A stretch of 64,000 bases of DNA from Paenibacillus sp. FSL K6-1330 (GTDB lineage: Bacteria > Bacillota > Bacilli > Paenibacillales > Paenibacillaceae): the NCBI RefSeq assembly GCF_037976825.1, contig NZ_CP150269.1, positions 1,221,501-1,285,500 of the forward strand, given 5' to 3'. The position numbers and the translations under genes were made by a program. Positions 18,678 to 36,867 of the stretch are shown here, piece after piece. Under the pieces are notes generated by a model. That model was not told the DNA's origin and did no database searches. It worked only from the letters and a program-made list of their open reading frames with translations. Every line of letters begins with the position of its first letter. The first letter of the stretch is position 1.

Positions 18678-18698
18678 GTGAATAGGGGAGTTGGGGAC

Positions 18699-18740
18699 CA
18701 AATGGGGACGCTTAGTGATTTCGCGTCCCCATTTGTTTTT
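18699..18740 (+). terminator. Intrinsic terminator of rlmCD
   Basis: Perfect 13-bp stem CAAATGGGGACGC / GCGTCCCCATTTG (18699-18711 / 18723-18735), then TTTTT. Confidence 0.9.
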
Positions 18741-18800
18741 GCGGTGTTAGAATTGTCAGTAGTGTAGCACTTGACTAAGTGAGGCCGTTTAAGATTATTC

Positions 18801-18840
18801 GCGGGGAACCGTACCATAAGTGACGGCGTAAAATTTGTGG
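18801..18840. repeat. Cassette-boundary repeat, copy 1
   Basis: Contains CCGTACCATAAGTGACGGCG, an imperfect palindrome (CCGTACC / GTGACGG around ATAA). It separates rlmCD from the AIPR gene. Related copies are at 20765, 29593, 30607, 31770 and 32921. Confidence 0.75.
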
Positions 18841-18876
18841 AATGCAAGGCAGGTATTAATAGGATAAAAAAAAATA

Positions 18877-18906
18877 AGCTCCTTCCACAAAATTAGTGGA
18901 GGAGCT
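18877..18906 (-). terminator. Intrinsic terminator of the AIPR gene
   Basis: Stem AGCTCCTCCAC / GTGGAAGGAGCT on the minus strand, followed there by a run of T (A-run at 18865-18875 on the plus strand). Confidence 0.8.
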
Positions 18907-18931
18907 AGATAGTTCAGCTTAATGTGCTTGT

Positions 18932-20695
18932 TTAGTTCTTTGGAGAAACTAATTCAGGTCTATTTTTTAGCTCTTCAGTCAAATGATCACTAAAAGTGAT
19001 GTTTTTTGCAATGTTTATTAACTCTTGTTGTGAGCTCGTTTTTTGATAATCAGAGAGAATCTCTTTTAGAATAGAAAAAGCGATAGTAATATTTTCTTCG
19101 TTGACATTATCAGTATCAATTCCAGCAAACTCTCGATCATTATAATCTGCATTATTAAGTATTACTGACACCAAAATTCTTCCAACGTGGAAAGGATAGT
19201 TAGTCGCAATTGCATCCTCTTGAGCAGTAGTTGTAACCATGCTCCTTAATGTACGCTCAACCTGTTTCATAACTTCAATGCTTATTAAGTAAATTTCTGG
19301 TTGTCTGGTTACAGGAAAAAGACGTCTATAGTCTTTTTCGTTTTTTGTAAGAGTGGTGGGATTAGATCTTGCTTTCGATGGATTTTTTTGTACAAGTGCG
19401 GTTAAGCATTGGGATAAATATTTAATTGATATTATTTTATTTCTTGGCTTTCCTTGATTCTTGTAAAAATTTTTCCTTCTATCATAGTAGAAACCTTTAG
19501 ATAGTAAGTACTCCTCAATATTCCTCTGTACTGTGTCAGTTGCTCTTAAAGTAGAAGGAGGAACATAATTTTGTGAGTTAGTGGATTTAATTATTGCGTC
19601 TGAAGTTTCCTTTTTTCCTGTGATAACTATTTTAAGTAGTAGTGACCTTTTATCGTCCTCGAAGGAGCCGTTTGATAATGCATTAAATATAGTGTAAGAA
19701 GTTTGTAGACCATTAACGATCTGAATGTTGTCTAAGTGGAGTGTTTTTCCGGCCAAGGTGCCTTTTTCAGCAATAATTGTTACCCCATTATTAAGCCACC
19801 AGAAATCAAACTCAGGTTTTTCAGTAACTGTTTCTCCAATTTCTTGATTTACATCAGTATTGTTTTGATAATCCCTTACGTTTGATTCAAATAAATATTT
19901 ACGAAGTGTTCCGTCTGAGTCAGAGAGGAATTTATAATACTCAAAAAGTGTTGTCGATGCTATATATCCACCTTGTTCTTGCTGGTAATCGATTGTAATC
20001 GGTGTTTCATTTAATTTTAATGGTAAAGAGTATGTTGGATTTTTTCGAGATAATTCCATCAAAGACTCGGCATCTACAATATGGTATGAGTACTCAATAA
20101 TGTTTCCACCAGTGTTTTTAACTTTTTGCGATAGCAGAACCATTTTTCTTAGATATGCATCGTTCTGTGTGTCAGGACCTAATGTTTTGGTTTTATTGCC
20201 CTTACATACGTGATAATAGTTCACGAGAATCTTTGGATGTCGTCCAGCAATCTTCATCCATGTACTGTGAAATAGTTTTATTTTTTCAATTAGTGCAGGA
20301 TTGAAAATTTCACTAAGAGTATCAAAATCGGTACCGAGTTGAAAAATATGCTCTGCTGATGCGATAAAGCGGTCTACGACAAGTTCTTCCACGGAATTAG
20401 AATTTTTATATTGCATAAGGTGAAGTTCAAGCGTTGGTTGATTAGTAGCTTTAATTTCATCTGGATCATAGATGAATTCACCGTTCAAGAATACAAAAAA
20501 GCCATCAACTCCACCATCTCGTGAAGCCCCGATAAGACCAGACTCGATTTCCTCGGAACCAATATCTTTATCCTTTAGTATTTGCTCGGCAGAGAAAAAT
20601 TCAAATGCTATATCAATGCTTTTGAAGGCTCCAGTATTCTTATATTCTTCTATTATACTATTTAAAAGATACAACTGCGTACTCGTGGTAATCAC
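18932..20695 (-). CDS. AIPR family protein (abortive infection phage resistance)
   Basis: About 587 residues. The hallmark AIPR segment is near the middle: EFDFWWLNNGVTIIAEKG, then IQIVNGLQTSYTIFNAL, and further on NSQNYVPPSTLRATD. The N-terminal part has a nuclease-like look (ASRDGGVDGFFVFLN, then LHLMQYKNS), which may be a PD-(D/E)XK-type core. Members are linked to phage resistance by abortive infection. The initiator is probably GTG 20695 behind GGGAAG; TTG 20707 is an alternative. It is a single-gene unit transcribed toward rlmCD and flanked on both sides by the island's boundary repeat. AT-rich composition suggests transfer. Confidence 0.85.
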   Translation of the reverse strand: MITTSTQLYLLNSIIEEYKNTGAFKSIDIAFEFFSAEQILKDKDIGSEEIESGLIGASRDGGVDGFFVFLNGEFIYDPDEIKATNQPTLELHLMQYKNSNSVEELVVDRFIASAEHIFQLGTDFDTLSEIFNPALIEKIKLFHSTWMKIAGRHPKILVNYYHVCKGNKTKTLGPDTQNDAYLRKMVLLSQKVKNTGGNIIEYSYHIVDAESLMELSRKNPTYSLPLKLNETPITIDYQQEQGGYIASTTLFEYYKFLSDSDGTLRKYLFESNVRDYQNNTDVNQEIGETVTEKPEFDFWWLNNGVTIIAEKGTLAGKTLHLDNIQIVNGLQTSYTIFNALSNGSFEDDKRSLLLKIVITGKKETSDAIIKSTNSQNYVPPSTLRATDTVQRNIEEYLLSKGFYYDRRKNFYKNQGKPRNKIISIKYLSQCLTALVQKNPSKARSNPTTLTKNEKDYRRLFPVTRQPEIYLISIEVMKQVERTLRSMVTTTAQEDAIATNYPFHVGRILVSVILNNADYNDREFAGIDTDNVNEENITIAFSILKEILSDYQKTSSQQELINIAKNITFSDHLTEELKNRPELVSPKN

Positions 20696-20764
20696 GCTAC
20701 TTCCCAAATATGATAGTTATATATTAACAAAAATTAAATGGTTGGTGAATACTGGATTTAACCT

Positions 20765-20880
20765 TGCCGTTACAGACAACGCGGAGAATCTTACCATAGA
20801 CAACGAAAAATTGATACGTTACGGCTTATAGATAGATTATTTTGCCATACATTTACCCTGTTCCTTTCATAAGTGATCGA
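20765..20880. repeat. Cassette-boundary repeat, copy 2 (long form)
   Basis: CCGTTACAGACAACGCGGAG is followed by a diverged core (TTACCATAGACAACG) and GCCATACATTTACCCTGTTCC. The same order recurs at 31770-31870. It lies between the AIPR gene and the next gene. Confidence 0.6.
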
Positions 20881-20984
20881 AGATAATTAGATCATACAGC
20901 CACCTTTAAAGGTGGAAAGTTAGATACGAGTGAAATCAAGTAATGGGAGTACCTGTTAATTCCTTATAGATTGGAGTGCTGATT

Positions 20985-21698
20985 ATGGGGGAGACTCAAC
21001 TATTATTTTGGAAACCAACAATTAAAAGACATCAAGAAGAGCTAACGATAGTTTTAGATTACTATAATAAAACCAAAGATTACTTTAGCAATATAGAAGA
21101 GGAATCAAAGGAATATGGAAATAAACTATTCCGAGAGTATCCAGGAGGGGAAGATACTGATACTGCCTCAGTAGCAGAATGGGCACAAGAGGAAAGCGTT
21201 GAAATGTATCTATCGTTATTGACTATGAAGTCCAATCACTTACTGATGACAATTTCTCTTTTATATCATACTTGGGAACAGCAGCTTATTCGCTTTACAA
21301 TTAATGAGTTGAGCCATGACCTTACATTTATTAAAAAGGCATTGGAGTTCAAAGAAGTTCAAACAATATTCAGGTTGCACGGGATAAATATCCCGGATAC
21401 TATTTCATGGACAAAAATTCGAGAACTAAAGTTTCTTACAAATACAATTAAGCATGGCAATGGTGAGTCTGCGGATAAGTTGAGAAAGATAAGACCAGAT
21501 TTCTTTCGTAGTGATCTATCTGGTGATTCATTTGATACTCTGGAATTGCATGGCGCAGTTCTGCTAAATGGGCACACATTAAGAGTCACAGAAAAAGACC
21601 TTGAAGCCTATGTATCTGCTGTTACTTCATTTTGGGACGAGATGCCAGAAAGAGCATATTGTGATGTTGATACATTACTCAGAGAGGCAGAGAAATAG
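20985..21698 (+). CDS. Unknown all-helical protein in the defence island
   Basis: I do not recognise a family. The 237 residues are almost wholly helical and acidic, without signal or membrane segments. The segment LKFLTNTIKHGNGESADKLR, with a conserved-looking R/K-HGNG, resembles the end of HEPN-like or DUF-type abortive proteins that sit beside toxins. ATG 20985 is 9 bases behind GGAG. The stop is followed within 20 bases by a junction to foreign coding sequence at about 21712. Placement between AIPR and a type I methyltransferase argues for an anti-phage or accessory role, but this is inference. Confidence 0.6.
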   Translation: MGETQLLFWKPTIKRHQEELTIVLDYYNKTKDYFSNIEEESKEYGNKLFREYPGGEDTDTASVAEWAQEESVEMYLSLLTMKSNHLLMTISLLYHTWEQQLIRFTINELSHDLTFIKKALEFKEVQTIFRLHGINIPDTISWTKIRELKFLTNTIKHGNGESADKLRKIRPDFFRSDLSGDSFDTLELHGAVLLNGHTLRVTEKDLEAYVSAVTSFWDEMPERAYCDVDTLLREAEK

Positions 21699-21711
21699 TT
21701 TTTTTCAGTGT

Positions 21712-21745
21712 GGCTTTGGCCCGGGCGCGTTCTTCGGAACGGTTG
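21712..21745. repeat. Short duplicate of the phage-terminase remnant at 33541
   Basis: GTGGCTTTGGCC, then GCGCGTTCTTCGG, matches 33541-33575 with only a few differences over about 35 bases. It marks the recombination point where the truncated methyltransferase gene begins. Confidence 0.65.
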
Positions 21746-22428
21746 GAAATTGTCCAGTTAATATTGCTGATATAACTTCAGGGCTTGGTTTCACCCAAAG
21801 GGGACTCATTAATGAACTGGAAGTTAAAGAGGCTGTCTCCTATGAATTAAAAGAAAGTCTTGTTAGAATACAACAAAAGTTGGCTTTGTTATTGGATTTA
21901 AATGTTGTGGCGGAACAAAGGAACATTGTAACTGAAAACGTTGACGAGTCAGTTGTAGATCTTGTGGTTTATAACGCTCCTATTGCGGGGAAGGTCTCGG
22001 CGCTGGACATTAATCCAGAAGGAAGTATTCTATTGAGGGAAATAAAAACGACTGAGGTTGATCTGCTGTGCCTTGATAGAGCGATGAGAATAGTAAAGCC
22101 TGGGGGCTATGTGTTAACGCTGCTTTCAGCGGGATTTCTTTTCAAAGGGGGAAGTACGCAAAAAGTTAGAGAGTCTCTTCTAAAGGAAGCACATGTTAAA
22201 GCGATTATAACGATGCCATCCAATTCGCTTATGCCTTATGCAGGGGTATCAACATGTATGATATTACTGCAAAAAAAAGCAGCGGAATTAGTTAAGCCAA
22301 AGGAAGTTATAATGGCCGATTTCAGTCATGTCAAGCTAGACCGGAAACTGAAAACTAGCCCTGTGGATATCGATGAATTTAATGAACTATGCCAATTGAT
22401 CGCTGGAGGGATGAACAGTGGGAATTAA
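21718..22428 (+). pseudogene. Type I DNA methyltransferase subunit (HsdM-like), N-terminus missing
   Basis: The frame from the junction to 22428 matches the C-terminal half of an N6-adenine methyltransferase subunit: YELKESLVRIQQKLALLL, then VDESVVDLVVYNAPIAGKV, RAMRIVKPGGYVLTLL and PYAGVSTCMILLQKK. The N-terminal helical domain and the SAM motif I are gone, and the expected NPPY/F catalytic motif reads NAPI. No convincing start exists; the open frame before 21712 only crosses the previous gene out of phase. It overlaps the next specificity gene by 11 bases, as hsdM-hsdS pairs do. Probably inactive, unless NAPI is a true variant and the start is downstream. Confidence 0.7.
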
Positions 22429-23674
22429 ATTAGTCGAATACGATAAGTTGCAAGAAAGATGGGAGCCTATATTTTACCTTAAGCAACCATCTGAGAGGAT
22501 TTATGATGAAACAAGGCTGCTAGAAGAGGTGTGTGATATTTTACCGGACAGTCGCAGGGTGAAATTTGATCAGAGGGAGGAGTATTTGCAATACGTAGAT
22601 GGGAGTTGTATCGATAAAAGGACCGGAATGATAACGGAATGTAAAGAGGTAACTGAGGAAGTTTCCAAAAGGCTGCGTTATCGTATGACGGCAGGAGATA
22701 TGTTGATCCCGCTAGTAGAAGTTGGGGTAATGGTACCGACTATTGTTTCCTCACCTCAGGACCGGTTTATCCTGGTATCAGACATTTTTGCAGTTGTTAC
22801 TCCAAAGGTAGACCCGCTTTATCTTTATTGTGCTCTAACGACTGAATATGTTAGGGATCAATTCGAGGCAAGAAGCAAAGGTGCAGTTATCCGTAGAATC
22901 AGCTTGTCAGACCTGAAGGAAATAACTATACCTTGGCTAACTGAAGAAGAGAGGAAAGAAAAAATCCAAATGATTAAGCTGCAACTTAGCCATTTGGAAA
23001 ATGAAGACAAGGAAACTATCTTAGAAAAAATCGATAAAATTGTTAGTAGTCATTATAGCATAAAAGTTCCTAATGATGCTATTGGGGCAGTAGTTAAATT
23101 ACCGTATTCAGAACTGATTGAAAATCCACTATGGACATATGCGGCACTTAATCCCCAAATTTCTGAGTTTCAAGAGAAGATTCGGGGATGTGGGAATGTA
23201 TATACATTGGAAGAGGTCTGCTTAACTATTGATTCCGGGGTTAATCCAACAAAGGAAAAGAACGGAGAGATTGAAATTGGGATAGTGAAATCGAAGAACA
23301 TAGAAGTACTTACGCTTAAGGATGAGTTTGACACTATTTTGGTCGAACACCCCCGAGATAAGGAAACCCTCAACGTGGATGATGTATTATTTCGGCATAA
23401 AGGTACTATAGGCCCAGCTTCAATTGTAGAGCGGGAAAACCAAGGACTTCTTTTTCATGACCACTTATTGAGATTAAAGGTAGACCCAGAAATTATCGAC
23501 CCGAGCTATCTTGTGATTTTGCTAAATTCTTTTGTAATCAGGGAACAAGTTAAACAATATGTAACCAGTAGTACCATTAGCTTTATATCCAAACAAAACT
23601 TTGGCAAGTTATTAATTCCGATACCCACCATTAACGAGCAAAAATCGCTTGTTGATCAGATACATCAACACTAA
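22418..23674 (+). CDS. Type I restriction-modification specificity subunit (HsdS-like)
   Basis: GTG 22418 follows GGAGGGATGAACA. The 418 residues show two target-recognition halves. The first ends GAVIRRISLSDLKEITIPWL, a typical conserved region after a TRD, with a following coiled helix EKIQMIKLQLSHLENEDKE. The second ends SSTISFISKQNFGKLLIPIP and NEQKSLVDQIHQ. HsdS binds the split recognition sequence and positions HsdM. Its methyltransferase partner upstream is truncated, so this pair may be a relic or a donor of specificity domains. A hairpin at 23682-23720 closes the unit. Confidence 0.8.
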   Translation: MGIKLVEYDKLQERWEPIFYLKQPSERIYDETRLLEEVCDILPDSRRVKFDQREEYLQYVDGSCIDKRTGMITECKEVTEEVSKRLRYRMTAGDMLIPLVEVGVMVPTIVSSPQDRFILVSDIFAVVTPKVDPLYLYCALTTEYVRDQFEARSKGAVIRRISLSDLKEITIPWLTEEERKEKIQMIKLQLSHLENEDKETILEKIDKIVSSHYSIKVPNDAIGAVVKLPYSELIENPLWTYAALNPQISEFQEKIRGCGNVYTLEEVCLTIDSGVNPTKEKNGEIEIGIVKSKNIEVLTLKDEFDTILVEHPRDKETLNVDDVLFRHKGTIGPASIVERENQGLLFHDHLLRLKVDPEIIDPSYLVILLNSFVIREQVKQYVTSSTISFISKQNFGKLLIPIPTINEQKSLVDQIHQH

Positions 23675-23681
23675 AGGGAGC

Positions 23682-23720
23682 CCCCTGAGATATCCATATT
23701 CAATAAATCCATCTCAGGGG
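23682..23720 (+). terminator. Hairpin after the HsdS-like gene
   Basis: Perfect 10-bp stem CCCCTGAGAT / ATCTCAGGGG with a 19-base loop; weak T content after it. Confidence 0.5.
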
Positions 23721-23906
23721 ACTACCTTCTTAATAATAATCCAAAGGAACTACTTGTAAGTATGATATTATAGGAACTAGGAACATCATGTCGAATTGAT
23801 AATTATGAGTATTCTTGCGCTTTAACGAACATTCGTTTCCTGACAGCATAATAACATCATCACATGATTGAATGTTGTAAGTGCATATTCAGCCTGTTAA
23901 TGATGA

Positions 23907-24053
23907 GGTGGATATATAAACACAAGTAACGTTGCCTTTCTAGCAGGAAAGTGGCCAATCCTAGCATTACTTGGTCAATTAACTGAGGAATACCTTCATA
24001 AAGACCCCAATACAGCAATGGTCAAGATTCGTCAGTTTGGGGAGACGTTTTAA
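23907..24053 (+). pseudogene. Remnant of a type I restriction subunit N-terminal (DUF4145-like) domain
   Basis: One frame reads NTSNVAFLAGKWPILALLGQ followed by LTEEYLHKDPNTAMVKIRQF and GETF, then stop at 24053. This is the typical N-terminal helical domain of many HsdR proteins. A GAGGTGGA site is placed correctly, but the start codon position carries ATA. The downstream gene (24114) is a complete HsdR of a kind that lacks this domain, so this is the stump of a different, deleted restriction gene. The 230 bases before it show no other gene. Confidence 0.6.
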
Positions 24054-24113
24054 TGAATTTCGAAGAACTATAATTTAGTTAGAAATACCATATGAGAAAG
24101 GGAGTGATAATTC

Positions 24114-26456
24114 GTGATCAACAAAAAGCAGATGACTGAAGAAGACATCAAGCTCCGCTATATCACTCCGGCTATTACTACAAAATGGAGCGTTGATCAT
24201 ATTACGATGGAAACCAAGATCACAGACGGTAAAATCAACCTGAAAGGTAATCTTGTGTTCCGTGAAAAGCCGAAGAAGGCAGACTATGTTCTTTATATCC
24301 ATGCGAATAATCCCATTGCTATCGTTGAGGCAAAGGACAACAATCACTCTGTATCCTTCGGATTGCAGCAAGCGATGACCTATGCGCAGATGCTTGATGT
24401 GCCGTTTGCGTACAGCTCCAACGGTGACGCTTTTTATGAGCATGACTTTCTGACCGGACAAGAACGGCAGATTCCTATGTCTGAGTTTCCCTCTCCCGAT
24501 GAGCTGATGGCCCGTTATCAGGCTGCAAAGGGTCTGTCCGATAAAGAGAAGCACGTCATCTCTCAGCCTTACTACACGAGCCAGACCACACACGCACCGC
24601 GTTATTATCAGCGTAATGCAGTCAACCGCACTGTAGACGCTATTGCAAAGGGGCAGCAGCGACTTCTGCTTGTCATGGCTACTGGTACTGGTAAAACCTA
24701 CACGGCATTTCAAATCGTCTATCGCTTGTTGAAAAGCGGCACTAAGAAAAAAGTGCTATATCTTGCAGACCGCAATATTCTTGTTGACCAGTCCATACAG
24801 CAGGATTTCGCTCCGCTCGAAAAGACTATCCATAAAATCAATTTTGCAAAAGATGACCCCATCACCATCACTTCTCATGAAGTTTATTTCTCGTTGTACC
24901 AGCAGCTTGCTGGAAATGATGATAGTGATGACGGCACGTCGGATGACGATTCCGTCATGCGCTTTGCGTCTTTGTTCCAGAAAGATTTCTTCGACCTCAT
25001 CATCGTGGATGAGTGTCATAGGGGTTCAGCAAAGAAGGACAGCAACTGGCGTAAGATACTCGATTACTTCTCTTCGGCTACGCAGATCGGTATGACCGCC
25101 ACGCCGAAGGAATCAAAATACATTTCAAACATCGATTATTTTGGTGAGCCAATTTACAGCTATAGTTTGCGCGAAGGTATCGAGGATGGTTTCCTTGCAC
25201 CATTCAAGGTAATCAACATCCGTACCAATATAGGCGAAGGCTGGCGTCCGTATACAGGTCAGCTGGATAAGCACGGTCGGGAAATCGAAGATCGTATTTA
25301 CACCAACAGCGACTTTGACTACAACATCATCCTCGAAGACCGCACATACGAGGTCGCCAAGGAAATCACGGAATACTTAAAAAATACGGATAGAATGCAG
25401 AAAACGATTGTGTTCTGTGCAACCGAGGATCATGCCGAGCGGATGAGAATCGCGCTGGTCAACCTTAACTCGGATATGGTGAAGAACAACCCGGATTATG
25501 TGGTTCGCATAACAGGCAGTGATGTGTACGGCAAGAGCAAACTCGATTATTTTATTTCCGTGTCTGCTCCGTACCCTGTGATAGCAACGACGTCGAAACT
25601 TCTCTCCACCGGTGCGGACTGCAAGATGACGAAGTTGATTGTCCTCGACCAAATGATCGGCTCTATGACCGAATTTAAGCAGATTATCGGTCGCGGTACT
25701 CGGCTCCGTGAGAAGGAAGGGAAAACACACTTTATTGTCATGGATTTCCGCAATGTAACACGACTGTTTGCCGACCCTGAGTGGGATGGCCCCATTGAGC
25801 AGGATGATGATTACGGCCAAGGTGGCACTAAACCTGGTGGTTCTGGCCCTATAACACCTCCCGGCCCTGGCCCTAATCCAATAGAAAAACCTATTGTTGA
25901 TGAACAAGGTTGTACGGTCAAGGTAATTGGCAAGACTGTTTCTGTGTATGACGCCAACGGCAAGCTGCTCCGACAGGAAAGTATCATCGATTACACCAAA
26001 TCCAACATTCTAGGCACATACGCTTCACTTGATAACTTCATCCACCAGTGGTCTGCCGAGGAGAAGAAAGAACACATCCGTGATTTGCTCTTGGAGCGCG
26101 GTATTGATTTAGAAAGTATGAAAGCTGACCAGAGTTTGTCCGATGTGGATGACTTCGATTTCATCTGTCATGTTGCATTCGACCAGAAACCGTTGACGCG
26201 GCGGGAACGTGCTAACGGCGTAAAAAAACGTGATTTTCTCAGTAGATTCCAAGGGGCGGCTCGTGACATACTAGAGGCCCTCCTTGAAAAGTATATGAAT
26301 GCTGGCATTTATGAGATTGAGAAAACGGAAATATTGAAGCTTGACCCGTTCTTGAAATTCGGAAAGCCATCAAAGATTGCACAGTTTTTTGGCGGCAAGG
26401 ATGGATATCTGAAAGCCGTCAAGGAACTGGAAAAAGAACTATATGAGGTAGGTTAA
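24114..26456 (+). CDS. hsdR: Type I restriction enzyme subunit R (HsdR)
   Basis: This 780-residue protein begins at GTG 24114 behind AAAGGGAGTG. Its order is an N-terminal PD-(D/E)XK nuclease region (KADYVLYIHANNPIAIVEAK, near 60-85, with E-x-K), then a superfamily 2 helicase. Helicase motifs are ATGTGKT (motif I), DECHRGS (II), GMTATP (III), TIVFCATEDHAERM (IV) and QIIGRGTRLRE (VI). A proline/glycine linker near 585-600 (ITPPGPGPNP) precedes a C-terminal helical domain for complex assembly. It translocates DNA and cuts unmodified phage DNA with HsdM and HsdS. hsdM starts 4 bases after its stop. Composition is GC-richer than the surrounding island genes. Confidence 0.93.
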   Translation: MINKKQMTEEDIKLRYITPAITTKWSVDHITMETKITDGKINLKGNLVFREKPKKADYVLYIHANNPIAIVEAKDNNHSVSFGLQQAMTYAQMLDVPFAYSSNGDAFYEHDFLTGQERQIPMSEFPSPDELMARYQAAKGLSDKEKHVISQPYYTSQTTHAPRYYQRNAVNRTVDAIAKGQQRLLLVMATGTGKTYTAFQIVYRLLKSGTKKKVLYLADRNILVDQSIQQDFAPLEKTIHKINFAKDDPITITSHEVYFSLYQQLAGNDDSDDGTSDDDSVMRFASLFQKDFFDLIIVDECHRGSAKKDSNWRKILDYFSSATQIGMTATPKESKYISNIDYFGEPIYSYSLREGIEDGFLAPFKVINIRTNIGEGWRPYTGQLDKHGREIEDRIYTNSDFDYNIILEDRTYEVAKEITEYLKNTDRMQKTIVFCATEDHAERMRIALVNLNSDMVKNNPDYVVRITGSDVYGKSKLDYFISVSAPYPVIATTSKLLSTGADCKMTKLIVLDQMIGSMTEFKQIIGRGTRLREKEGKTHFIVMDFRNVTRLFADPEWDGPIEQDDDYGQGGTKPGGSGPITPPGPGPNPIEKPIVDEQGCTVKVIGKTVSVYDANGKLLRQESIIDYTKSNILGTYASLDNFIHQWSAEEKKEHIRDLLLERGIDLESMKADQSLSDVDDFDFICHVAFDQKPLTRRERANGVKKRDFLSRFQGAARDILEALLEKYMNAGIYEIEKTEILKLDPFLKFGKPSKIAQFFGGKDGYLKAVKELEKELYEVG

Positions 26457-26460
26457 TTCT

Positions 26461-27936
26461 ATGAGCATATCAAATTTCATTAAAAGAATTCGTGACATCA
26501 TGCGCAATGACTCAGGTATTAACGGTGACGCCCAGCGAATTGAGCAAATTGCATGGATGTTGTTTTTAAAGGTATATGACGCCAAGGAACAGGACTGGGA
26601 TATGGACGAAGATGATTATCAGTCTATTATCCCAGAAGACTGCCGTTGGAACTGTTGGGCTGTGGATGACAAGAGCGGTAACGCCATGACAGGTGATACT
26701 TTACTGAACTTTGTTAACAACACGCTATTTCCAACGCTCAAGGAGCTGAATGTCACACCTGACACGCCTATTAAAAAATCCATTGTCAAGACGACCTTTG
26801 AAGACGCCAATAACTATATGAAAGACGGTGTCCTTCTTCGTCAGGTCATCAACGTCATTGACGAACTGGATCTGAGTGATTATGAGGAAAGTCATGCTTT
26901 CGGTGAAATCTATGAATCCATCCTGCGTGAATTGCAGAGTGCAGGTTCTGCTGGTGAGTTTTACACGCCACGTGCGGTAACAGAATTCATGGCGAGAGCC
27001 ATACAACCGAAAATCGGTGATAGGATGGCGGACTTTGCCTGCGGCACCGGAGGCTTCATTACAAGCTGGCTGAAAGAACTCTCTCCGCGGATTCAGAACA
27101 CGGATGACCAGGCTGAATATGATAACTCGATCTATGGTGTTGAGAAAAAGCAGTTCCCGTATATGTTGTGTATTACCAACATGCTTCTTCATGGCCTTGA
27201 CATCCCCAAGATCTATCATGACAACTCTCTATTGCGGAATGTGCTGGACTATACGGAGGAAGAACAGTTCGATGTTATTTTGATGAATCCTCCGTACGGT
27301 GGGAGTGAAAAAGCAGACGTCAAGAAGCACTTCCCGGCCGACCTCGCTAGCAGTGAAACGGCAGACCTTTTCATGTCTGTCATCATGTATCGACTGAAGA
27401 AAAACGGTCGTGCAGCGGTCATCCTGCCGGACGGTTTCTTGTTCGGCACGGACAATGCGAAGGTTTCCATCAAGAAGAAACTCTTATCTGAATTCAATCT
27501 GCATACCATTATCCGTATGCCGGGAAGTGTGTTCTCGCCTTATACACCGATTACAACCAATATTCTGTTCTTCGACCGTACAAAACCGACCACAGAGACC
27601 TGGTTCTATCGTTTGGATAAGCCAGAGGGATATAAGAACTTCTCCAAAACAAAGCCTATGAAACTTGAGCATTTCGCACCGGTTGTCGATTGGTGGGTTA
27701 ATCGGCAGGAACTAAGTGTAGACGGTTTTAACAAGGCAAAAAAATACACAGTCCAGCAACTTTCCGAGGAGTTAGGGTATAACCTCGACCAGTGTGGCTA
27801 TCCAAATAAGGAAGAAGAGGTTCTAGACCCGATGGATTTAATTCTGCGGTACGAGGAGCAGCGGGCTTCGCTGAACGCCGAGATTGACCGGGTGTTGGCC
27901 GATATTACTTCTCTTCTTGGTGGTGCGAAGCAATGA
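26461..27936 (+). CDS. hsdM: Type I restriction-modification methyltransferase subunit (HsdM)
   Basis: The 491 residues contain the N-terminal helical HsdM domain (SISNFIKRIRDIMRNDSGIN, then QIAWMLFLKVYDAKEQDWD). The N6-Mtase domain follows with AGEFYTPRAVTEFM, SAM motif I MADFACGTGGFITSWL near residue 195, and catalytic motif IV ILMNPPYGGSEKADV near 275. It methylates adenine at the sequence chosen by HsdS and protects host DNA. It is intact, unlike the truncated homologue at 21718. The stop overlaps the hsdS start by 4 bases (ATGA), so translation is coupled. Confidence 0.95.
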   Translation: MSISNFIKRIRDIMRNDSGINGDAQRIEQIAWMLFLKVYDAKEQDWDMDEDDYQSIIPEDCRWNCWAVDDKSGNAMTGDTLLNFVNNTLFPTLKELNVTPDTPIKKSIVKTTFEDANNYMKDGVLLRQVINVIDELDLSDYEESHAFGEIYESILRELQSAGSAGEFYTPRAVTEFMARAIQPKIGDRMADFACGTGGFITSWLKELSPRIQNTDDQAEYDNSIYGVEKKQFPYMLCITNMLLHGLDIPKIYHDNSLLRNVLDYTEEEQFDVILMNPPYGGSEKADVKKHFPADLASSETADLFMSVIMYRLKKNGRAAVILPDGFLFGTDNAKVSIKKKLLSEFNLHTIIRMPGSVFSPYTPITTNILFFDRTKPTTETWFYRLDKPEGYKNFSKTKPMKLEHFAPVVDWWVNRQELSVDGFNKAKKYTVQQLSEELGYNLDQCGYPNKEEEVLDPMDLILRYEEQRASLNAEIDRVLADITSLLGGAKQ

Positions 27937-29372
27937 CCCCACAAGAACTGAAAAACAGTATTCTTCAATTAGCAATTCAAGGTAGACTGGTGGAACAGCG
28001 CCAGGAGGAAGGCACTGGAGAGGAACTGTTTCAGCAAATTCAAACTGAAAAGCAGAAACGCATCAAAGCTGGGACAATCAAGAAAGAAAAGCCTCTTCCA
28101 GAAATTACAGAGCATGAAAAACCATTTGACATTCCAGAGGGGTGGCTATGGACTCGATTTGGCTCCATCATGCAGCTTTTGTCAGGGCAGGATATGACTC
28201 CAACAGAATACAATGATATTGCGAAGGGTATTCCATACATTACAGGTGCAAGCAACATTGAAAACTCAGCCATTATTATCAATCGTTGGACAGAGTCTCC
28301 AAAGGCTATTGCCCACAAAGGTGATTTGCTGTTGACGTGTAAAGGGACTGTTGGTAAAACTGCGATTCTAACCGAAGACGAGGTTCACATTGCCCGACAG
28401 ATAATGGCTATTACTCCATACGGAGTTGAAACAAAGTATATAATGTACTTTATTGATACCCAAATTAAGGCACTTAAGTCACAGGCAAAAAGCATGATCC
28501 CCGGAATTGAACGAAACAATGTTTTGAAACTCACTTTTCCGCTCCCGCCCCTTGCCGAGCAGAAACGGATTGTTGCCAAAATCGAAGAACTGCTACTGTA
28601 CATCGACCGCTATGAACAGGCGTGGAGCAAGCTTGAAGATTTCAATAAGCGTTTCCCTGGCGATATGCAGAAATCAATCCTGCAGATGGCCATTCAAGGC
28701 AAGCTTGTCGAGCAAAACCCGGAGGAAGGCAACGGCGAGGAACTGTATCAGCAAATTCAAGCTGAAAAGCAGCGGCTTATTAAAGCCGGAACTATCAAAA
28801 AAGTAAAGCCTTTGCCGGAAATAACCGAGGATGAAAAACCGTTTGATATTCCTGAGAGTTGGAAGTGGGTAGCCCTTCAAAATATTGCTATATCAATTGT
28901 TGACTGTCCGCATTCTACGCCAAAGTATTACGAGTCTAAAACCGAATATCACACCATTGATACAACTTGTATAGATGCGAATGGAACAATCATAGGATGG
29001 CGTTATGTTGATGGTCCAACGTATACGTCTCGAATTTCCCGTTTAGAGCCAAAAGAAAGTGACATCATATACACTCGAGAAGGATCTATTTGCCGAGCTG
29101 CTATTCTTCCAGATTCAAAGAAAATATGTCTTGGGCAGCGGGTAATGCTTATCAGATGTTCAGAAGGAGTTTTGCCACAATACTTAAAGCAGTTCTTGAT
29201 GGCACCTCAGACGGTACTATCGCTTACAGCCAAGCAGCGCGGAATTGGTGCAAAGCACATAAACGTATCTGATGTGTGTAGGTTGATGATTCCCCTCCCG
29301 CCTCTTGCCGAGCAGAAGCGTATTGTTGCCAAACTGGAAGAAATCCTGCCTTTGTGCGAGAAATTGAAATAA
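27933..29372 (+). CDS. hsdS: Type I restriction specificity subunit (HsdS) with duplicated halves
   Basis: The 479 residues comprise two direct repeats. Each starts with a helical arm (SILQLAIQGRLVEQ at 9-22 and SILQMAIQGKLVEQ near 250). Each continues with a long EELxQQIQxEK coil, a KPLPEIT-DIPE-W entry to the target-recognition domain, and ends with PLPPLAEQKRIVAK and an EELL-type helix. The arms are very similar while the two TRDs differ, as expected for recognition of a bipartite asymmetric site. The repeat arms make half-swaps by recombination easy. It overlaps hsdM by 4 bases and is followed by a terminator at 29553. Confidence 0.93.
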   Translation: MTPQELKNSILQLAIQGRLVEQRQEEGTGEELFQQIQTEKQKRIKAGTIKKEKPLPEITEHEKPFDIPEGWLWTRFGSIMQLLSGQDMTPTEYNDIAKGIPYITGASNIENSAIIINRWTESPKAIAHKGDLLLTCKGTVGKTAILTEDEVHIARQIMAITPYGVETKYIMYFIDTQIKALKSQAKSMIPGIERNNVLKLTFPLPPLAEQKRIVAKIEELLLYIDRYEQAWSKLEDFNKRFPGDMQKSILQMAIQGKLVEQNPEEGNGEELYQQIQAEKQRLIKAGTIKKVKPLPEITEDEKPFDIPESWKWVALQNIAISIVDCPHSTPKYYESKTEYHTIDTTCIDANGTIIGWRYVDGPTYTSRISRLEPKESDIIYTREGSICRAAILPDSKKICLGQRVMLIRCSEGVLPQYLKQFLMAPQTVLSLTAKQRGIGAKHINVSDVCRLMIPLPPLAEQKRIVAKLEEILPLCEKLK

Positions 29373-29552
29373 GTTTGGACTGCCTGTTATATACGGTTGG
29401 AATAGAAGAACTAAGATCAATTGGGCATAACTAGATGATTTTATTGTGCGGTTTCTTAAACCACTCTTCCAAACAACCTTAACATAATACTCTGGGGGAT
29501 TGTGGTTTTGCTCAGCTACACTTCAGTGTTCCGAACTTCAGTCCCAACTACG

Positions 29553-29576
29553 AAGGGCACCCATGCGGGTGCCCTT
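29553..29576 (+). terminator. Terminator of the hsdRMS operon
   Basis: Perfect stem AAGGGCACCC / GGGTGCCCTT with a 4-base loop, followed by AAAATTTGC. The remaining 29373-29552 shows no gene. Confidence 0.7.
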
Positions 29577-29592
29577 AAAATTTGCTTTAAAG

Positions 29593-29640
29593 ATGATACG
29601 GTGAACCGTACCATAAGTAACGGCGAAATTTTTTGCGAAC
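29593..29640. repeat. Cassette-boundary repeat, copy 3
   Basis: CCGTACCATAAGTAACGGCG differs from copy 1 at one base (GTAACGG for GTGACGG). It separates the hsdRMS operon from the cyclase-like gene. Confidence 0.75.
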
Positions 29641-29674
29641 ATTGGATAGAAGATAATATTTAGGGGGGCTACAA

Positions 29675-30370
29675 ATGAAGCATGGCGCTATTTCATTGAT
29701 GGATGTATTAGGGTGGAAAGGAATATGGCAGCGAAAAACAGATGCAATATCAGTACTTAAGAGCCTAATACGTGCTTCACAAGTTTGGATTGATAGTTAT
29801 AAAGAAGATTCTTTAATGTCATCACATTTGAGTGATTTAACGGTAGAAATCAGGAGCATTTCTGACACTATCGCTTTGGTTACATATGGAGAGGATATCA
29901 ATAAAGCAATTGAATTTCATGGTATTATTAATCGATTTTTAGTTTGCAATTCAATTTCCAGAAAGATACCTCTTAGAGGAGCAACAGCTTATGGAGAGTT
30001 AGAATTAAGTGAGAATATAATGGTCGGTCCAGCGGTAGATGAAGTAGCTTCTTGGCATGAAGCATCAGACTGGATAGGTGTATTTCTAACTCCATCAGCA
30101 CTATTTCAATTAAATACAGCTAATTTTTTTGGCAGTCGATTTAATCTCGAAAGTGAGACTGGAATTTATACACGTTATAATGTTCAAATAAAAGGGATGG
30201 GAACTTACGACACCTACTGTGTCAATTGGCCTACGATGTGGGAATCTGGCCGTCAAGGCTTAACTCAAAACTTTTTAAAAATGGGTCCAATAACCCCGGC
30301 TATTGCAAGTAAGTACATCAATACATTAAAGTTTTTCGATGAACAAAAGCCTCAAAGTTCTGAAGCTTAA
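29675..30370 (+). CDS. Class III nucleotidyl-cyclase-like protein (Pycsar-cyclase-like candidate)
   Basis: The 231-residue soluble protein shows, in order, ISLMDVLGWKGIW at 6-18 (a metal-site D followed by a turn) and SISDTIALVTYG at about 61-72 (second acidic strand). Then come LRGATAYGEL near 100 and IMVGPAVDEVASWHE near 113-128. This order parallels the F-x-D-I-x-G-F, D-x-x-L, R-x-G-x-x-x-G-E and G-x-x-V-N-x-A-x-R blocks of class III cyclases and of the cCMP/cUMP cyclases of Pycsar defence. No sensor domain is attached. Typical Pycsar effectors (TIR or TM with a nucleotide-binding domain) are not evident next to it. ATG 29675 lies behind AGGGGGG. Assignment is by pattern only. Confidence 0.55.
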   Translation: MKHGAISLMDVLGWKGIWQRKTDAISVLKSLIRASQVWIDSYKEDSLMSSHLSDLTVEIRSISDTIALVTYGEDINKAIEFHGIINRFLVCNSISRKIPLRGATAYGELELSENIMVGPAVDEVASWHEASDWIGVFLTPSALFQLNTANFFGSRFNLESETGIYTRYNVQIKGMGTYDTYCVNWPTMWESGRQGLTQNFLKMGPITPAIASKYINTLKFFDEQKPQSSEA

Positions 30371-30427
30371 GTCTAAAAGTTATAATTCAAACGCAGAGGC
30401 TCTTGTGGGGCTTCTGGGCAAGGGAAA

Positions 30428-30458
30428 GCCCCTCCGCTATATCGCCAGCGGAAGGGGC
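30428..30458 (-). terminator. Hairpin between convergent genes
   Basis: Stem GCCCCTCCGCT / AGCGGAAGGGGC with an 8-base loop, between the cyclase-like gene (+) and a small minus-strand frame. Confidence 0.6.
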
Positions 30459-30463
30459 CATGC

Positions 30464-30622
30464 TTAAAGCTTCTCAGTCTCCTCGTTTAAGTCAAGCCCG
30501 ATGCTGCCGGCACGCTCTCTGTTGTAAAGGTAATTCTCATCATAATCAATTTGGGAGTCGTCCGCCGTTCTATTCCACGCCGACTCCTTAGCCGCGTGAC
30601 CTACCCGCACCATATGATGCAT
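30464..30622 (-). CDS. Small unknown reading frame, probably a gene end
   Basis: A 52-residue minus-strand frame (MHHMVRVGHAAKESAWNRTA, continuing to NEETEKL) has protein-like composition and ends 6 bases before a hairpin. It is not recognisable. The N-terminal part overlaps the boundary repeat at 30607-30699, and no good ribosome site precedes it. It may be the surviving C-terminus of a longer gene whose upstream part was replaced at the repeat. Confidence 0.35.
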   Translation of the reverse strand: MHHMVRVGHAAKESAWNRTADDSQIDYDENYLYNRERAGSIGLDLNEETEKL

Positions 30623-30699
30623 GTGCTTTTCTGGAGCAGGCGTATCGGGCGATTAGATTAATCGGAGGGACAGTGTCATAAGTGACGGCGAAAAATTGG
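30607..30699. repeat. Cassette-boundary repeat, copy 4 (extended form)
   Basis: The last 35 bases carry CATAAGTGACGGCGAAAAATT. The whole 93 bases align without net length change to 32921-33013, from GCACCATATGATGC through GATTAGATTAATCGG, with roughly three quarters identity by eye. Confidence 0.75.
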
Positions 30700-30907
30700 A
30701 TTGAAGGCGGGAAATCCATTTCCCGCATCGTCTGCTCCCAATAAGAAGAACGGCCTGTGCTGGTCAAGGCGAAACGTGTCTTCCTCGTCGTCGGTAAACT
30801 CGGCCTCCAACTGTCGAAAGTACTTCGCACTGTGCTCGGTTAATGCTGCGGACACTATTCCGTCCCGGCGAAGGTCTTCGACGTCCTGCGGGTTTGATGT
30901 TTAGCAT
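30676..30907 (-). pseudogene. Small unknown gene with an early frameshift
   Basis: A strong AGGAGGGACGATC site precedes ATG 30907, giving MLNIKP. Thereafter the protein-like frame is shifted by one base: QDVEDLRRDGIVSAALTEHS, then AKYFRQLEAEFTDDEEDTF and on to FNPIFRRHL, stop at 30676. About 76 residues if joined, highly acidic in the middle. The resemblance to winged-helix regulator tails is weak. Its C-terminal codons are made by the boundary repeat itself. Confidence 0.4.
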
Positions 30908-30930
30908 GATCGTCCCTCCTGAAAAAGTTG

Positions 30931-30954
30931 AAGACCCCTCGTGAAAGGGGTCTT
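30931..30954 (+). terminator. Terminator-like hairpin
   Basis: Stem AAGACCCCT / AGGGGTCTT followed by TCTTGAATT. It lies between two minus-strand units and may terminate the gene at 31003-31722. Confidence 0.55.
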
Positions 30955-31002
30955 TCTTGAATTGAAATGGAAATGCATAATTGAATTCACAATAGTTTCA
31001 TT

Positions 31003-31722
31003 TTATAACTCGGTATTTAACTTTGTTTCTCCGAAACTGGTCAACTGGGCTAAGTTCTTGTCGTAGGCAAGCAGAAACAAATGAAGTGATTGCTCTACTT
31101 GGGAAAACCAGCTTTTATGATCTCTGTATCGATCAATCGAGATATTGTTTATCTTCTCTAATGCTTTCAACAACGATTCAATCATGGTGCAGATACAAAC
31201 GATAATTTCAAAGAATATTTGGTAGGTGTAAAACTCAACAAACAGCAATCCCATGAACGTTCCTTGAACTTGAGAATTTGGATGAACAAATTTACTTAGT
31301 CGTTGATAAACTTCGCGCTCCTTCTTTATATTTACAGGATATGTATCTGTCTTATTAAACCTGTCTGTTGCTAACCAACTCTTTATAGTTGTGGGTGTTT
31401 TCGTGAATGATTCAAGCAACCATATTGTTTCATATCCCTTGCGTATTAATAAATAGCATTCTTTTTCAAAAGCATTGCCCAATAATCTATATGATCCCAC
31501 AACTAGGTTTACAAAATCCGACGACAAAATCGTTTGGGCAAATTGTAAATGCCTTAAATCTTCACGTGTAGTTTTGGACTTCTCGCATTGCTCTTTGACT
31601 GAAAGCAAAAGATTAATATTTTTCCAGAAGAAATCGTCACATTCTGTTTCAAGAAAAACCCTAGCTTTATTAGCATTTAGTTCATAATGATCTTTTAGAT
31701 TGATCTTGATCACACCTAACAT
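31003..31722 (-). CDS. Unknown helical protein in the defence island
   Basis: Not recognised. The 239 residues are helical and soluble, with two moderately hydrophobic stretches (SSDFVNLVVGSYRLLGNAF near 70 and FMGLLFVEFYTYQIFFEIIV near 165) that could be buried helices. The phrase RLSKFVHPNSQVQG resembles the HP-containing helix of DUF5677/HEPN-like proteins found near nucleases. It is a single-gene unit between boundary repeats 4 and 5 and runs opposite to the cyclase-like gene. The ribosome site is weak, so the start is tentative. Confidence 0.6.
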   Translation of the reverse strand: MLGVIKINLKDHYELNANKARVFLETECDDFFWKNINLLLSVKEQCEKSKTTREDLRHLQFAQTILSSDFVNLVVGSYRLLGNAFEKECYLLIRKGYETIWLLESFTKTPTTIKSWLATDRFNKTDTYPVNIKKEREVYQRLSKFVHPNSQVQGTFMGLLFVEFYTYQIFFEIIVCICTMIESLLKALEKINNISIDRYRDHKSWFSQVEQSLHLFLLAYDKNLAQLTSFGETKLNTEL

Positions 31723-31769
31723 TGAGTACTGTAACTTAAATATAACAGAAAAAGCTGTCCCCCAAAAAA

Positions 31770-31870
31770 CTTACCGTTACAGACAGCGGGGAGAACCGTA
31801 ACCATCGGTGACGGCGAAAAAATATTCGCCTCGCCATATATTCGCCCTGTTCCCAGTCTTCTTAATCAGT
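31770..31870. repeat. Cassette-boundary repeat, copy 5 (long form)
   Basis: CCGTTACAGACAGCGGGGAG is followed by CCGTAACCATCGGTGACGGCG-like sequence and GCCATATATTCGCCCTGTTCC. It is collinear with copy 2 at 20765-20880. Confidence 0.7.
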
Positions 31871-31940
31871 GATAATTACTCTAAAAGTAGATGAGCATTA
31901 TAGACAGTAATACTTTTAGGAAACAGGAGGCGGGGACGTA

Positions 31941-32821
31941 ATGCCTTTTACATACCAAGTCAAGATTGACTTTCATAGAGATTGGGCCAGATTACTAAAA
32001 CATAATATTGAGTTACAAGGATATAAAGTTAGGCAAGGGACATTGACGAAAATATAAGCTTACAATACTTCAATTTACAACGTCGTTTGGTTACACCTGT
32101 CCTGAGAGAGGTGTTATTCTCTAATAACTTTACTTGTCCGGTTCAGCTTCAAGCTGGTCTGGATTCTGTCGTAGAGAAAATAGCTAAAGGCGAGTCTATA
32201 AAATCTAATTTAAGTAAAAAAATCGTGAATCTAAAATATAACGATGATTTATTGAATGATTGGGGAGTTTACCACCTACATTTGGGGACTTCTTTAGACA
32301 ATGAAGGATTTGTCGAGCGTACAGGCCCTCTGCTCTTGGCAAGGTTCGACAACGTTAAAGCATATTTAATTAATATCATGCCACACGGAAGTTGGACTAA
32401 AAAAGAAATAATTACTACAGTTCATAAGAATTGGCCAGAATCAATAGCTCATTTTAAGATGAAGCTGCAAAGACTAGAGAAAGAGATTACAGACGAGGAT
32501 CGAAAAAGCTTGAGAAGGTTACATGCTAATACGGTGGTAGAGATGGGGGGTGGAGTCATCTATGGCCCTTTAGGGGGAGGCTATACAACTTCAGGATTGA
32601 ATGCGGAAGTTCTTCGAGTAAGCGATTTTTGTTTTAATCAACTTAGTCTTTATGAGATCTGGATAAAGGAAAATATATCAATTTTGAGAAAAAAGTTAAA
32701 AAATCTGAATGCAAATTTTGGGGCAATATTAATCTTTTCACTTGAAGTTATAGATAATATAGCCTACGCGCTTGAAACTGTCTCAAAAGTTCGTTTTAAA
32801 TTAGGGCCAGTGCTACCGTAA
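31941..32821 (+). pseudogene. Unknown defence-island protein with a one-base frameshift
   Basis: An AGGAGGCGGGGACGTA site precedes ATG 31941. The first frame reads MPFTYQVKIDFHRDWARLLK and on to YKVRQG, then stops at 32056. From about 32040 the other frame continues DIDENISLQYFNLQRRLVTP to the stop at 32821. Joined, the product would be about 293 residues. It contains VYHLHLGTS near 110 and AYLINIMPHGSWTKKEIITT near 145, a pattern I associate with uncharacterised proteins near restriction genes. Dropping one G in the GGG at 32037-32039 restores the frame. Function unknown. Confidence 0.6.
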
Positions 32822-32920
32822 TAAAAATGATTTGCGATTTCATATCTGTACCGACTAACCAACTGCATCGCGGCTGCTCACGCGTCGACAGGGAGCTCTC
32901 TTTTGGCCGCTGATCTATTC

Positions 32921-33013
32921 GCACCATATGATGCGGCGGACGCTGTTGGAGCAGATGTATTGGGCAATTAGATTAATCGGGGGAACGGTGCCACAAGTAA
33001 CGGCGAGAAATGG
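32921..33013. repeat. Cassette-boundary repeat, copy 6 (extended form)
   Basis: Collinear with copy 4: GCACCATATGATGC at one end, GATTAGATTAATCGG in the middle, CCACAAGTAACGGCG near the other end. It lies directly before the gene fragment at 33058. Confidence 0.75.
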
Positions 33014-33057
33014 TGGTTTGGATTTAAGTAAGAGATTATAAGTAGGGAGTGAGGCCT

Positions 33058-33222
33058 ATGGCGAAGAGAAGACCAAAAAAGCAGGGCAAAAAGCGTCTTC
33101 ATGAGATTGCAAGTATGAAAGAGCTATCTTCGAATGCAACAAGTTTGGTAAATTTGAAGCAGGCTATGCCGGTTTTAAGTCCATTTCTTAAGGAGTTTGG
33201 GGCTGAAGTTGATAAGATAATA
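33058..33222 (+). pseudogene. 5' fragment of an unknown gene
   Basis: AGTAGGGAGTGAGG precedes ATG 33058, which opens MAKRRPKKQGKKRLHEIASM and a helical stretch to about residue 55. Beyond 33222 the plus-strand frame only reads the antisense of a phage gene, so the true C-terminus has been replaced. Not recognised. Confidence 0.5.
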
Positions 33223-33905
33223 AGTCCTCGTCACATCCTCCATGTACTGAATCACAGCATCCTGTTGCTCCACCGGGACAAATTTCAGAATCGCCGCTGT
33301 GATTGCCTGTTCACGCGCTGCTTCTCGGATCTTAATCTCTTCAAGCCCATAGTGCGTATAGCCGCCATTGCTTCCATTGGTGAGCTTGTGCTTCATCTCG
33401 ATAGCCTTGATGGCGGTGACCGGACTGACTACTTCCATCTTGCTCAAGTGTCGAATCCCTTCTGAATGACTTCATCCAGTAGTTCCAGATCGTGTCGGAT
33501 GCGCTTCGCACTGTCTTTATCGGCCAGTTCTTTCTCCAGCGTGGCTTTGGCCTTGGCACGTTCTTCGGCGCGGTTCTCCTTATACTGTGTATTGCCCTTT
33601 TCTCTTACCTTATCCCGCGCTGAATCTTCCAACGCCTTTTTAACGGGTCTACCTTCGCGTGTAGAAGTTCAATCGTAAGTCCATTTACAATCGCTTCCCG
33701 GCGCTGCTTGATTTAAGAGTATATGGTAGGAACGCTGATCGGGAAGCCGTTATCATTACACCACGCCACCAATTCCTTCACAGGTGTACTGTCATCAATT
33801 ATCTTGTCCAGGAATGGCTTGTTATTCCCTTTGACCAGCGCCGCTATCTTGCCGGGCATGAATTGTGTTCGTGTTTTTTAGTCGCTCTTGCTTTTTCCTC
33901 ATCAT
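33222..33905 (-). pseudogene. Degraded phage small-terminase-like gene
   Basis: Starting at ATG 33905 behind GGGGTGAG, pieces in different frames read MPGKIAALVKGNNKPFLDKI, then VAWCNDNGFPISVPTIYS with TAA in place of a sense codon. After that come KQRREAIVNGL, KENRAEERAKAKATLEKELA, RHDLELLDEVIQKGFDT and, in a further frame, KLTNGSNGGYTHYGLEEIKI to KFVPVEQQDAVIQYM. The HTH-plus-coil layout fits a small terminase or similar phage DNA-packaging protein. There is at least one stop and two frameshifts, so it is dead. A copy of the 44-52 kb operator stands just upstream. A 35-base piece of it recurs at 21712. Confidence 0.5.
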
Positions 33906-33912
33906 GCTCACC

Positions 33913-33942
33913 CCGTATCGTTAAGCTATATTAACGTAATAT
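33913..33942. promoter_or_regulatory. Palindromic operator-like site, outlying copy
   Basis: CCGTATCGTTAAGCTATATT followed by AACGTAATATAACG matches the CGTATCGTTACG-AT-rich motif of 44-52 kb at most positions. It is immediately upstream of the minus-strand terminase-like remnant. Confidence 0.5.
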
Positions 33943-34056
33943 AACGATTTGGCTACGAATTAAAGGTGACTGAACCGTCTGTTAAGGTCGGGCCGGTTAT
34001 CAGAATCCCACAGGAGGCACTAAGAAAGTTCACCCTTGAAGACAACAGGAGGTAAT

Positions 34057-34146
34057 TTGAATGATTATCAATGTAAGGCAGTCTCACTCACTGAAGCCGC
34101 CAAGATGCTAGGCATGACTGAACAGGAGGTATTACGACTAAGCTAA
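34057..34146 (+). pseudogene. N-terminal fragment of a small HTH protein
   Basis: A strong ACAGGAGG site precedes TTG 34057, encoding 29 residues that include LTEAAKMLGMTEQEVLRLS, a helix-turn-helix of the excisionase/MerR type. The frame stops after LRLS where such proteins normally continue. It is a remnant; the following 200 bases contain the tail of another helical protein (about 34259-34363, frame ending AYEAALHRLIQAGGG). Confidence 0.4.
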
Positions 34147-35222: not shown

Positions 35223-35246
35223 ATTATTAGAATTAAGGAAATTCCA

Positions 35247-35930: not shown

Positions 35931-35968
35931 TCTAAAGTTGAAAAATTCACCAGCTTGAGAGGATCACT

Positions 35969-36865: not shown

Positions 36866-36867
36866 AG

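Follow-up and report, generated by a model that had tools for sequence, protein, structure and literature searches.

Elements of the staphylococcal cassette chromosome (SCC) type, one of which is printed as about 18.2 kb long, attach in staphylococci at the 3′ end of rlmH, where the repeat is printed as GAAGC(A/G)TATCATAA(G/A)TGA (passages of PMC10581047). SCC-like islands at rlmH are known from several genera, as passages of two sources relate (PMC10581047, PMC6222049), and excerpts of a third present a composite in Paenibacillus pinistramenti, made up of islands in tandem, in which the rlmH-end repeat occurs more than once (PMC10061031). Here we analyze six copies of a short palindromic repeat that separate genes in a 64,000-nucleotide stretch of the Paenibacillus sp. 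FSL K6-1330 chromosome (contig NZ_CP150269.1, positions 1,221,501 to 1,285,500; hereafter, the window). An earlier reading made from the sequence alone (the sequence-only reading) had suggested that these repeats bound anti-phage cassettes gained and lost one at a time.

Genome comparison establishes, at the level of sequence, a core that coincides with the rlmH 3′ end, a direct orientation of the sites, and changes between genomes that fall at the site. We consider it highly probable that the repeats are attachment (att) sites of SCC-type cassettes moved by CcrA/B-like recombinases.

The repeat and the rlmH 3′ end

A profile hidden Markov model (HMM) recovered all six copies where the sequence-only reading had placed them, all on the plus strand and each with a 27-bp core (Table 1). 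Allowing up to 3 mismatches, the motif pattern matched three times in 64 kb and never in 100 shuffles. The repeat search joined five copies into one ungapped family and linked copy 4 with 6 and copy 2 with 5 through longer common flanks, which reproduces the copy classes originally proposed. The HMM was trained on 116 sites, all from other genomes. After the six copies, its next matches in the window were copy 3 read on the reverse strand (E 0.0037), as the palindrome of that copy would give, and another piece of copy 5 (E 0.57); the reversed window gave a top match of E 1.5. A second HMM, built from type-A sites only, also reports 33506-33529 on the minus strand (E 0.098). The earlier statement that no copy lies outside the island holds for the window and fails for the genome: a stricter pattern found six matches in the whole 7.43 Mb, four in the window and two towards the far chromosome end (7,351,156 and 7,307,817, both on the minus strand), downstream of rlmH (7,356,858-7,357,334), with a weaker match at about 7,311,384.

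The motif segment GAA CCG TAC CAT AAG TGA reads as EPYHK-stop, the C-terminus of RlmH. In related genomes, the left side of the motif is often coding and ends ...RAVKINRGEPYHK-stop, and the protein that ends in the motif is RlmH (NCBIfam 1.7e-72). Because this upstream reading frame is that of RlmH, we identify the motif as the rlmH 3′ end plus about ten bases. Copies 4 and 6 are accordingly assigned, from their alignment, to decayed rlmH ends. The "93-bp form" that they were said to share is indeed common to both, and consists of the core and about 70 bp that belong to the rlmH coding region; the end at site 6 is 80% identical to an rlmH end in another locus (L129) and 76% to the rlmH of the same-species genome G070.

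The palindrome described in the sequence-only reading is present and proves larger than proposed, the left half (CTTGCCGTTAC... or TTCGCCGTTA...) being the inverse of the right half (GTAACGGCAAG or TAACGGCGAA). The left half is CTTGCCGTTACAGACAGCGCGG in copies 2 and 5 and differs from this in copies 1 and 3. Since these left halves are inverse partners of the right halves, copies 1, 2, 3, and 5 look like element-element junctions. Agreement with the staphylococcal repeat amounts to 15/18 positions for copy 3, 14/18 for copy 4, and 12/18 for copy 6, beside the value for copy 1 in Table 1. Earlier work cited in a passage of PMC6222049 holds the central C of the site to be essential; it is kept in 115 of the 116 sites from other genomes. 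As in SCC, there are direct repeats of the rlmH end with a TATCATAA-type core (degenerate in copies 2, 5, and 6) and inverted-repeat half-sites at the element ends, of which the reverse-strand match of copy 3 is an instance. The repeat had been likened to a recombinase core site, and these features bear that likeness out. A terminator-like stem-loop often stands to the left of a site, for example at 29562-29585.

Distribution and orientation of the sites

The search of the whole genome and of related Paenibacillus genomes that the sequence-only reading had proposed was carried out, and the repeat was found beyond the island and across the genus. Of 100 genomes examined in the genus, 47 hold the site pattern, at 72 sites in all, against a single match when the same genomes were read backward; a scan of 914,569 fetched bases gave 107 sites, and none in the same bases reversed. 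Within 19 site-bearing genomes in which rlmH was located, 26 of 44 sites lie at most 80 kb downstream of rlmH and co-oriented with it (a limit set after viewing the data, and a count that includes three G007 sites only if that contig is circular). The other 18, including four window sites, lie elsewhere. Sites and rlmH share a strand in all 20 fetched loci that hold both, as counted by eye.

Neighboring sites point in the same direction in 56/56 pairs (score at least 14; stretches up to about 20 kb around sites), with a median spacing of 3.4 kb in which longer spacings are lost at the stretch ends. The same was found for 43/43 pairs in 88 stretches of named genomes (score at least 12; some genomes occur in both sets). 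These 88 stretches were retrieved with the type-A junction pattern. Among the 80 of them listed, 63 are from Paenibacillus, 10 from Cohnella, 2 from Brevibacillus, 2 from other Paenibacillaceae, and one each from Gordonibacillus, Fontibacillus, and Pseudalkalibacillus; the P. pinistramenti record with the published tandem islands (NZ_VAWG01000004) contains such a junction. The pattern gave no match in viral contigs. A phage or plasmid origin was considered and rejected: copy 6 with its flanks has no match in phages or plasmids, and a junction query returned no phage. When scored as full sites, two partial site matches on Paenibacillus plasmids reach 10.8 and less than 5.

Gain and loss of units between genomes

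Unit-wise gain and loss with breakpoints at the repeat, as the sequence-only reading had envisaged, is supported because units differ between related genomes with breakpoints at the sites. When 126 sites were compared, 80 pairs had just the right flank in common, 118 just the left (in many cases simply rlmH), and 2 both. Between loci of different genomes, 290 of 1,556 alignment ends lie no more than 40 bp from a site, whereas random placement gave 21 on average and 32 at most. For alignments of at least 93% identity the count is 30 of 242; each alignment enters from both sides, and the ends are not independent.

The clearest comparison involves G057, which has two sites with 3,053 bp between them, and G069, which has a single site at the same place. 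The outer flanks show 98.7% (1,643 bp) and 98.9% (4,293 bp) identity. The single G069 site joins parts of both G057 sites, the switch lying inside the core. The intervening unit holds one long gene and, by its list of open reading frames (ORFs), no transposase. In the window, the segment 20804-21700, which adjoins copy 2 on its right, has a counterpart immediately behind rlmH in G043, with 94% identity over 898 bp. The similarity begins inside the core, and the left neighbors differ (AIPR in the window, rlmH in G043). In G078, an AIPR relative of 52% identity is flanked by a site, of score 20.3, on its 5′ side only, and the DNA similarity to an AIPR gene in G159 ends at window position 20757, just left of copy 2. 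One of the five window units is therefore found elsewhere directly at a site, in its first 0.9 kb (unit 2); beyond this unit and the one-sided AIPR relative, the comparison yielded no such evidence for the other three. A search for replaced-unit pairs returned none.

Recombinases near rlmH and in the window

Among 27 genomes, 5 (G001, G017, G065, G069, G072) carry a PF07508 recombinase no more than 25 kb from rlmH on its 3′ side, three of them (G017, G069, and G072) as a tandem pair. CcrB is the top NCBIfam model for all seven of these recombinases that were scanned (of eight), at 252-437 bits; a control set of ten, drawn from 14 recombinases extracted at other loci, scores 70-192 bits with this model. 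The sequence-only reading had also suspected a broken recombinase, and a CcrB-like scrap of about 30 codons does lie beside copy 4, the only ccr sequence that the window carries. By itself the match is weak, its two pieces each reaching E 0.008 in a small search and one piece 0.20 in the whole window; it gains support from the 76% DNA similarity to a G007 stretch whose own scrap matches at E 2.3e-16. Two further pieces resemble serine recombinase scraps by eye, at 34371-34640, where Pfam gives no match, and at 41847-41954, where the search gives E 0.15-0.38.

The window island and its cargo

The window units hold AIPR/AbiU, a type I restriction-modification system, a PD-T4-7-like gene, and three genes without an assigned function (Table 1).

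Table 1. Sites, unit genes, and island limits in the window
Feature	Coordinates	Strand	Evidence
Site 1: SCC-type att, element-type left half	18787..18837, core 18805-18831	+	HMM E 1.1e-12; staphylococcal repeat 16/18
Site 2: type-A left half, decayed right half	20760..20813, core from 20785	+	HMM E 7.1e-6; type-A HMM 3.9e-10
Site 3: att, left half TTTGCTTTAAAGATGATACGG, stem-loop immediately upstream	29581..29635, core 29602-29628	+	HMM E 1.1e-16
Site 4: decayed rlmH 3′ end + core	30605..30699, core 30667-30693	+	84% to G043 rlmH end; HMM E 1.6e-5
Site 5: type-A left half, core with one-base insertion	31766..31823, core from 31791	+	HMM E 8e-5; type-A HMM 3.9e-11
Site 6: decayed rlmH 3′ end + core	32920..33012, core 32982-33008	+	HMM E 7.1e-5
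Unit 1 gene: AIPR / AbiU-like protein	18932..20707	-	Pfam AIPR 2.2e-38; PADLOC AbiU 2.6e-169
Unit 2, first gene: helical protein	20976..21698	+	Segment 20804-21700 common with G043 behind rlmH
Unit 2, rest: hsdM fragment, hsdS, hsdR, hsdM, hsdS	21601..29372	+	Pfam/PADLOC/NCBIfam
Unit 3 gene	29675..30370	+	Pfam, PADLOC: no match at E 0.01
CcrB-like large serine recombinase gene, 3′ scrap, frame-shifted	30429..30523	-	E 0.008 twice; DNA 76% to G007 L117
Unit 4 gene	31003..31722	-	Pfam, PADLOC: no match at E 0.01
Unit 5 gene: PD-T4-7-like, N-terminus apparently missing	32087..32821	+	PADLOC PD-T4-7 8.9e-29, profile positions 51-275 of 337
Island at rlmCD 3′ end containing the array	18647..36972		Limits vs same-species G070

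The predicted model of the helical protein (predicted local distance difference test score, pLDDT, 73.5) found no match at E 0.001 in a PDB search. A cyclase identity proposed for the unit 3 gene was not confirmed, there being neither a Pfam nor a PADLOC match and an unusable single-sequence model (pLDDT 38). With the own genome included, relatives of this gene occur in 1 of 100 genomes, those of AIPR in 3 of 100 at 1e-30 and 3 of 394 at 1e-60, and those of the helical gene in 6 of 394.

The array lies behind rlmCD, with rlmH at 7.357 Mb, and G070 carries a different island at the same rlmCD place. Large serine recombinase genes were seen directly behind rlmCD in two genomes (G005:C20:38122-40196; G017:C1:7858562-7860658), fitting rlmCD as an integration hotspot in its own right. 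A 45-bp piece is repeated at 21700-21744 and 33531-33575 with 82% identity; on the minus strand it presumably resembles the end of a Tn554-type TnpC / DUF6262 gene. Tn554-type transposon ends, considered from this piece, were dropped after the core proved to be rlmH.

Fifty-six between-site units, two of them from the own genome near rlmH, contain 150 ORFs of at least 120 amino acids, of which 99 lie on the strand of the site; 30 units have at most two such ORFs. Pfam assigns 173 families, led among the matches listed by short-chain dehydrogenases (8) and AraC-type regulators (6), followed by ABC transporters and TetR regulators (4 each). PADLOC at 1e-10 assigns 27 families, including AbiU (2), AbiD (2), Thoeris ThsA and ThsB, and bSEFIR. 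The specificity for anti-phage genes that the sequence-only reading had suggested did not survive this survey: units elsewhere hold, next to some defence genes, many genes of metabolism and regulation, and the site system is not specific to defence. No defence enrichment is claimed, because the cargo counts have no matched control.

Proposed mechanism and its rivals

In the mechanism that we favor, a pair of CcrA/B-like large serine recombinases would release, as a circle, the unit that two direct sites enclose, and circles would insert at an existing site. Because each insertion would recreate the site, a direct array could grow unit by unit. Units without a recombinase would be possible, with the recombinase acting in trans and often lost. 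On this view the window holds an old, decaying array away from rlmH, within the larger island at the 3′ end of rlmCD. Sites 4 and 6, which are rlmH ends of its own, and the recombinase scrap suggest that the array came from one at rlmH, and, since it has no intact recombinase, it is probably immobile now.

Several observations weigh against this interpretation. Excision circles and recombination are inferred, neither having been observed. All seven scanned recombinases near rlmH fall under the CcrB cut-off of 900 bits, below the CcrA/B/C equivalog level, and are thus termed CcrB-like rather than CcrB; CcrB is also the top model for 5 of the 10 control recombinases. A PF07508 search of the window's genome found no match and hence no intact recombinase of that family, and the same holds for 6 of 18 other site-bearing genomes, one of which (G003) has tblastn fragments. 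Four unrelated places in the window also agree with the staphylococcal repeat at 14/18, so that this measure carries copies 1 and 3 only, and not 4 and 6. The G057/G069 comparison is the only filled/empty pair among 63 loci, or 129 including named genomes, and IS110-like genes were recognized by eye in its flanks. The locus of the AIPR gene in G159, whose protein is 89% identical, contains no site. Contrary to the expectation that island breakpoints would fall in the repeats, comparison with G070, the only same-species genome, puts the ends at 18646/18647 and about 36973, which are not repeats.

Some of these observations would suit passive scars: other elements would have scattered the rlmH and element ends, and ordinary homologous recombination between short direct repeats would have removed or exchanged units. 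The missing PF07508 recombinase in the own genome, the decay of the window copies, and the movement of the island as a whole by other boundaries all agree with such an origin. However, 27 bp is short for homologous recombination, the two half-sites are inverses of each other, as they are at SCC att sites, the neighboring pairs keep to one strand throughout, and the sites are concentrated behind rlmH, where the CcrB-like pairs sit; we regard passive scarring as improbable. That an IS110-like element targeting the sites drives the unit changes, instead of a Ccr recombinase, appears more improbable still. Genes named IS110-like by eye adjoin sites in G042 and G057 (transposases at L146 11131-12093 in G042, and at L152 3718-4763 and 11138-12108 in G057), and a special left half, ACGGGCA...GAAGATCAA, occurs at 8 of 116 sites, perhaps that of an insertion sequence targeting them. 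Most sites and all window sites nevertheless lack this half, and the transposase-free G057 unit speaks against such a driver. Scarcely credible, finally, is a terminator or other RNA element at gene ends. Left flanks do fold better than right flanks (50 vs 21 of 116 at or below -15 kcal/mol; 34 vs 16 of 96 with rlmH-type sites excluded, p 0.027), but Rfam gives no match at gathering threshold in 18000-37500, the identical core is rlmH coding sequence elsewhere, and breakpoints fall at the core, those of the G043 and G057/G069 comparisons disfavoring an RNA role.

Returning to Ccr-type movement, it is conceivable, and we advance it tentatively as one reading, that the Paenibacillaceae run a serine-recombinase counterpart of the integron. 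Such a system might draw on a common pool of cassettes, most of them without a recombinase and each holding one to a few genes, and string them in direct arrays at rlmH-end sites, with CcrAB-like pairs moving them in trans; the window would then hold a secondary array decaying inside the rlmCD island. New arrays could be founded elsewhere because the units would carry a portable rlmH 3′ end. The repeat becomes a readable boundary mark by which accessory regions can be divided into units and the genes that travel asked for, and the Paenibacillus accessory genome is tied to SCC machinery. The recombinase pairs beside rlmH in G069 and G072 make the mechanism directly testable.

Comparison with known systems

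With SCC, including its composite and recombinase-less forms, the Paenibacillus sites share the location at the rlmH 3′ end, direct repeats, inverted-repeat half-sites, and tandem arrays, and CcrB-like recombinases stand near rlmH in the window's relatives. The window array differs in that it is not at rlmH, has no intact ccr gene, and is built of units of one or few genes. The P. pinistramenti islands, as excerpted, are helicase and polymerase pair islands at rlmH, and those passages do not mention small recombinase-free units or other locations (PMC10061031). The Enterococcus cassette chromosome resembles the present system in its rlmH site, ccrAB, att of about 50 bp with inverted repeats, and variable cargo; it differs as a 32-kb element for which, in the passages concerned, tandem elements with several ccrAB were not directly observed (PMC6222049). 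A literature search that left most subscription journals and preprints outside its range found nothing on short recombinase-free units or non-rlmH arrays in Paenibacillaceae. Thus, SCC-like tandem islands in one Paenibacillus are already published, and the short recombinase-free units and the arrays away from rlmH seem new.

Integrons, too, assemble direct arrays of short cassettes through a recombinase acting in trans. This arrangement is similar; the site, here an rlmH end, and the recombinase class, here a large serine recombinase, are different. On the present findings, the large SCC elements known from staphylococci and enterococci may mark one extreme of a range that is integron-like at its opposite extreme.

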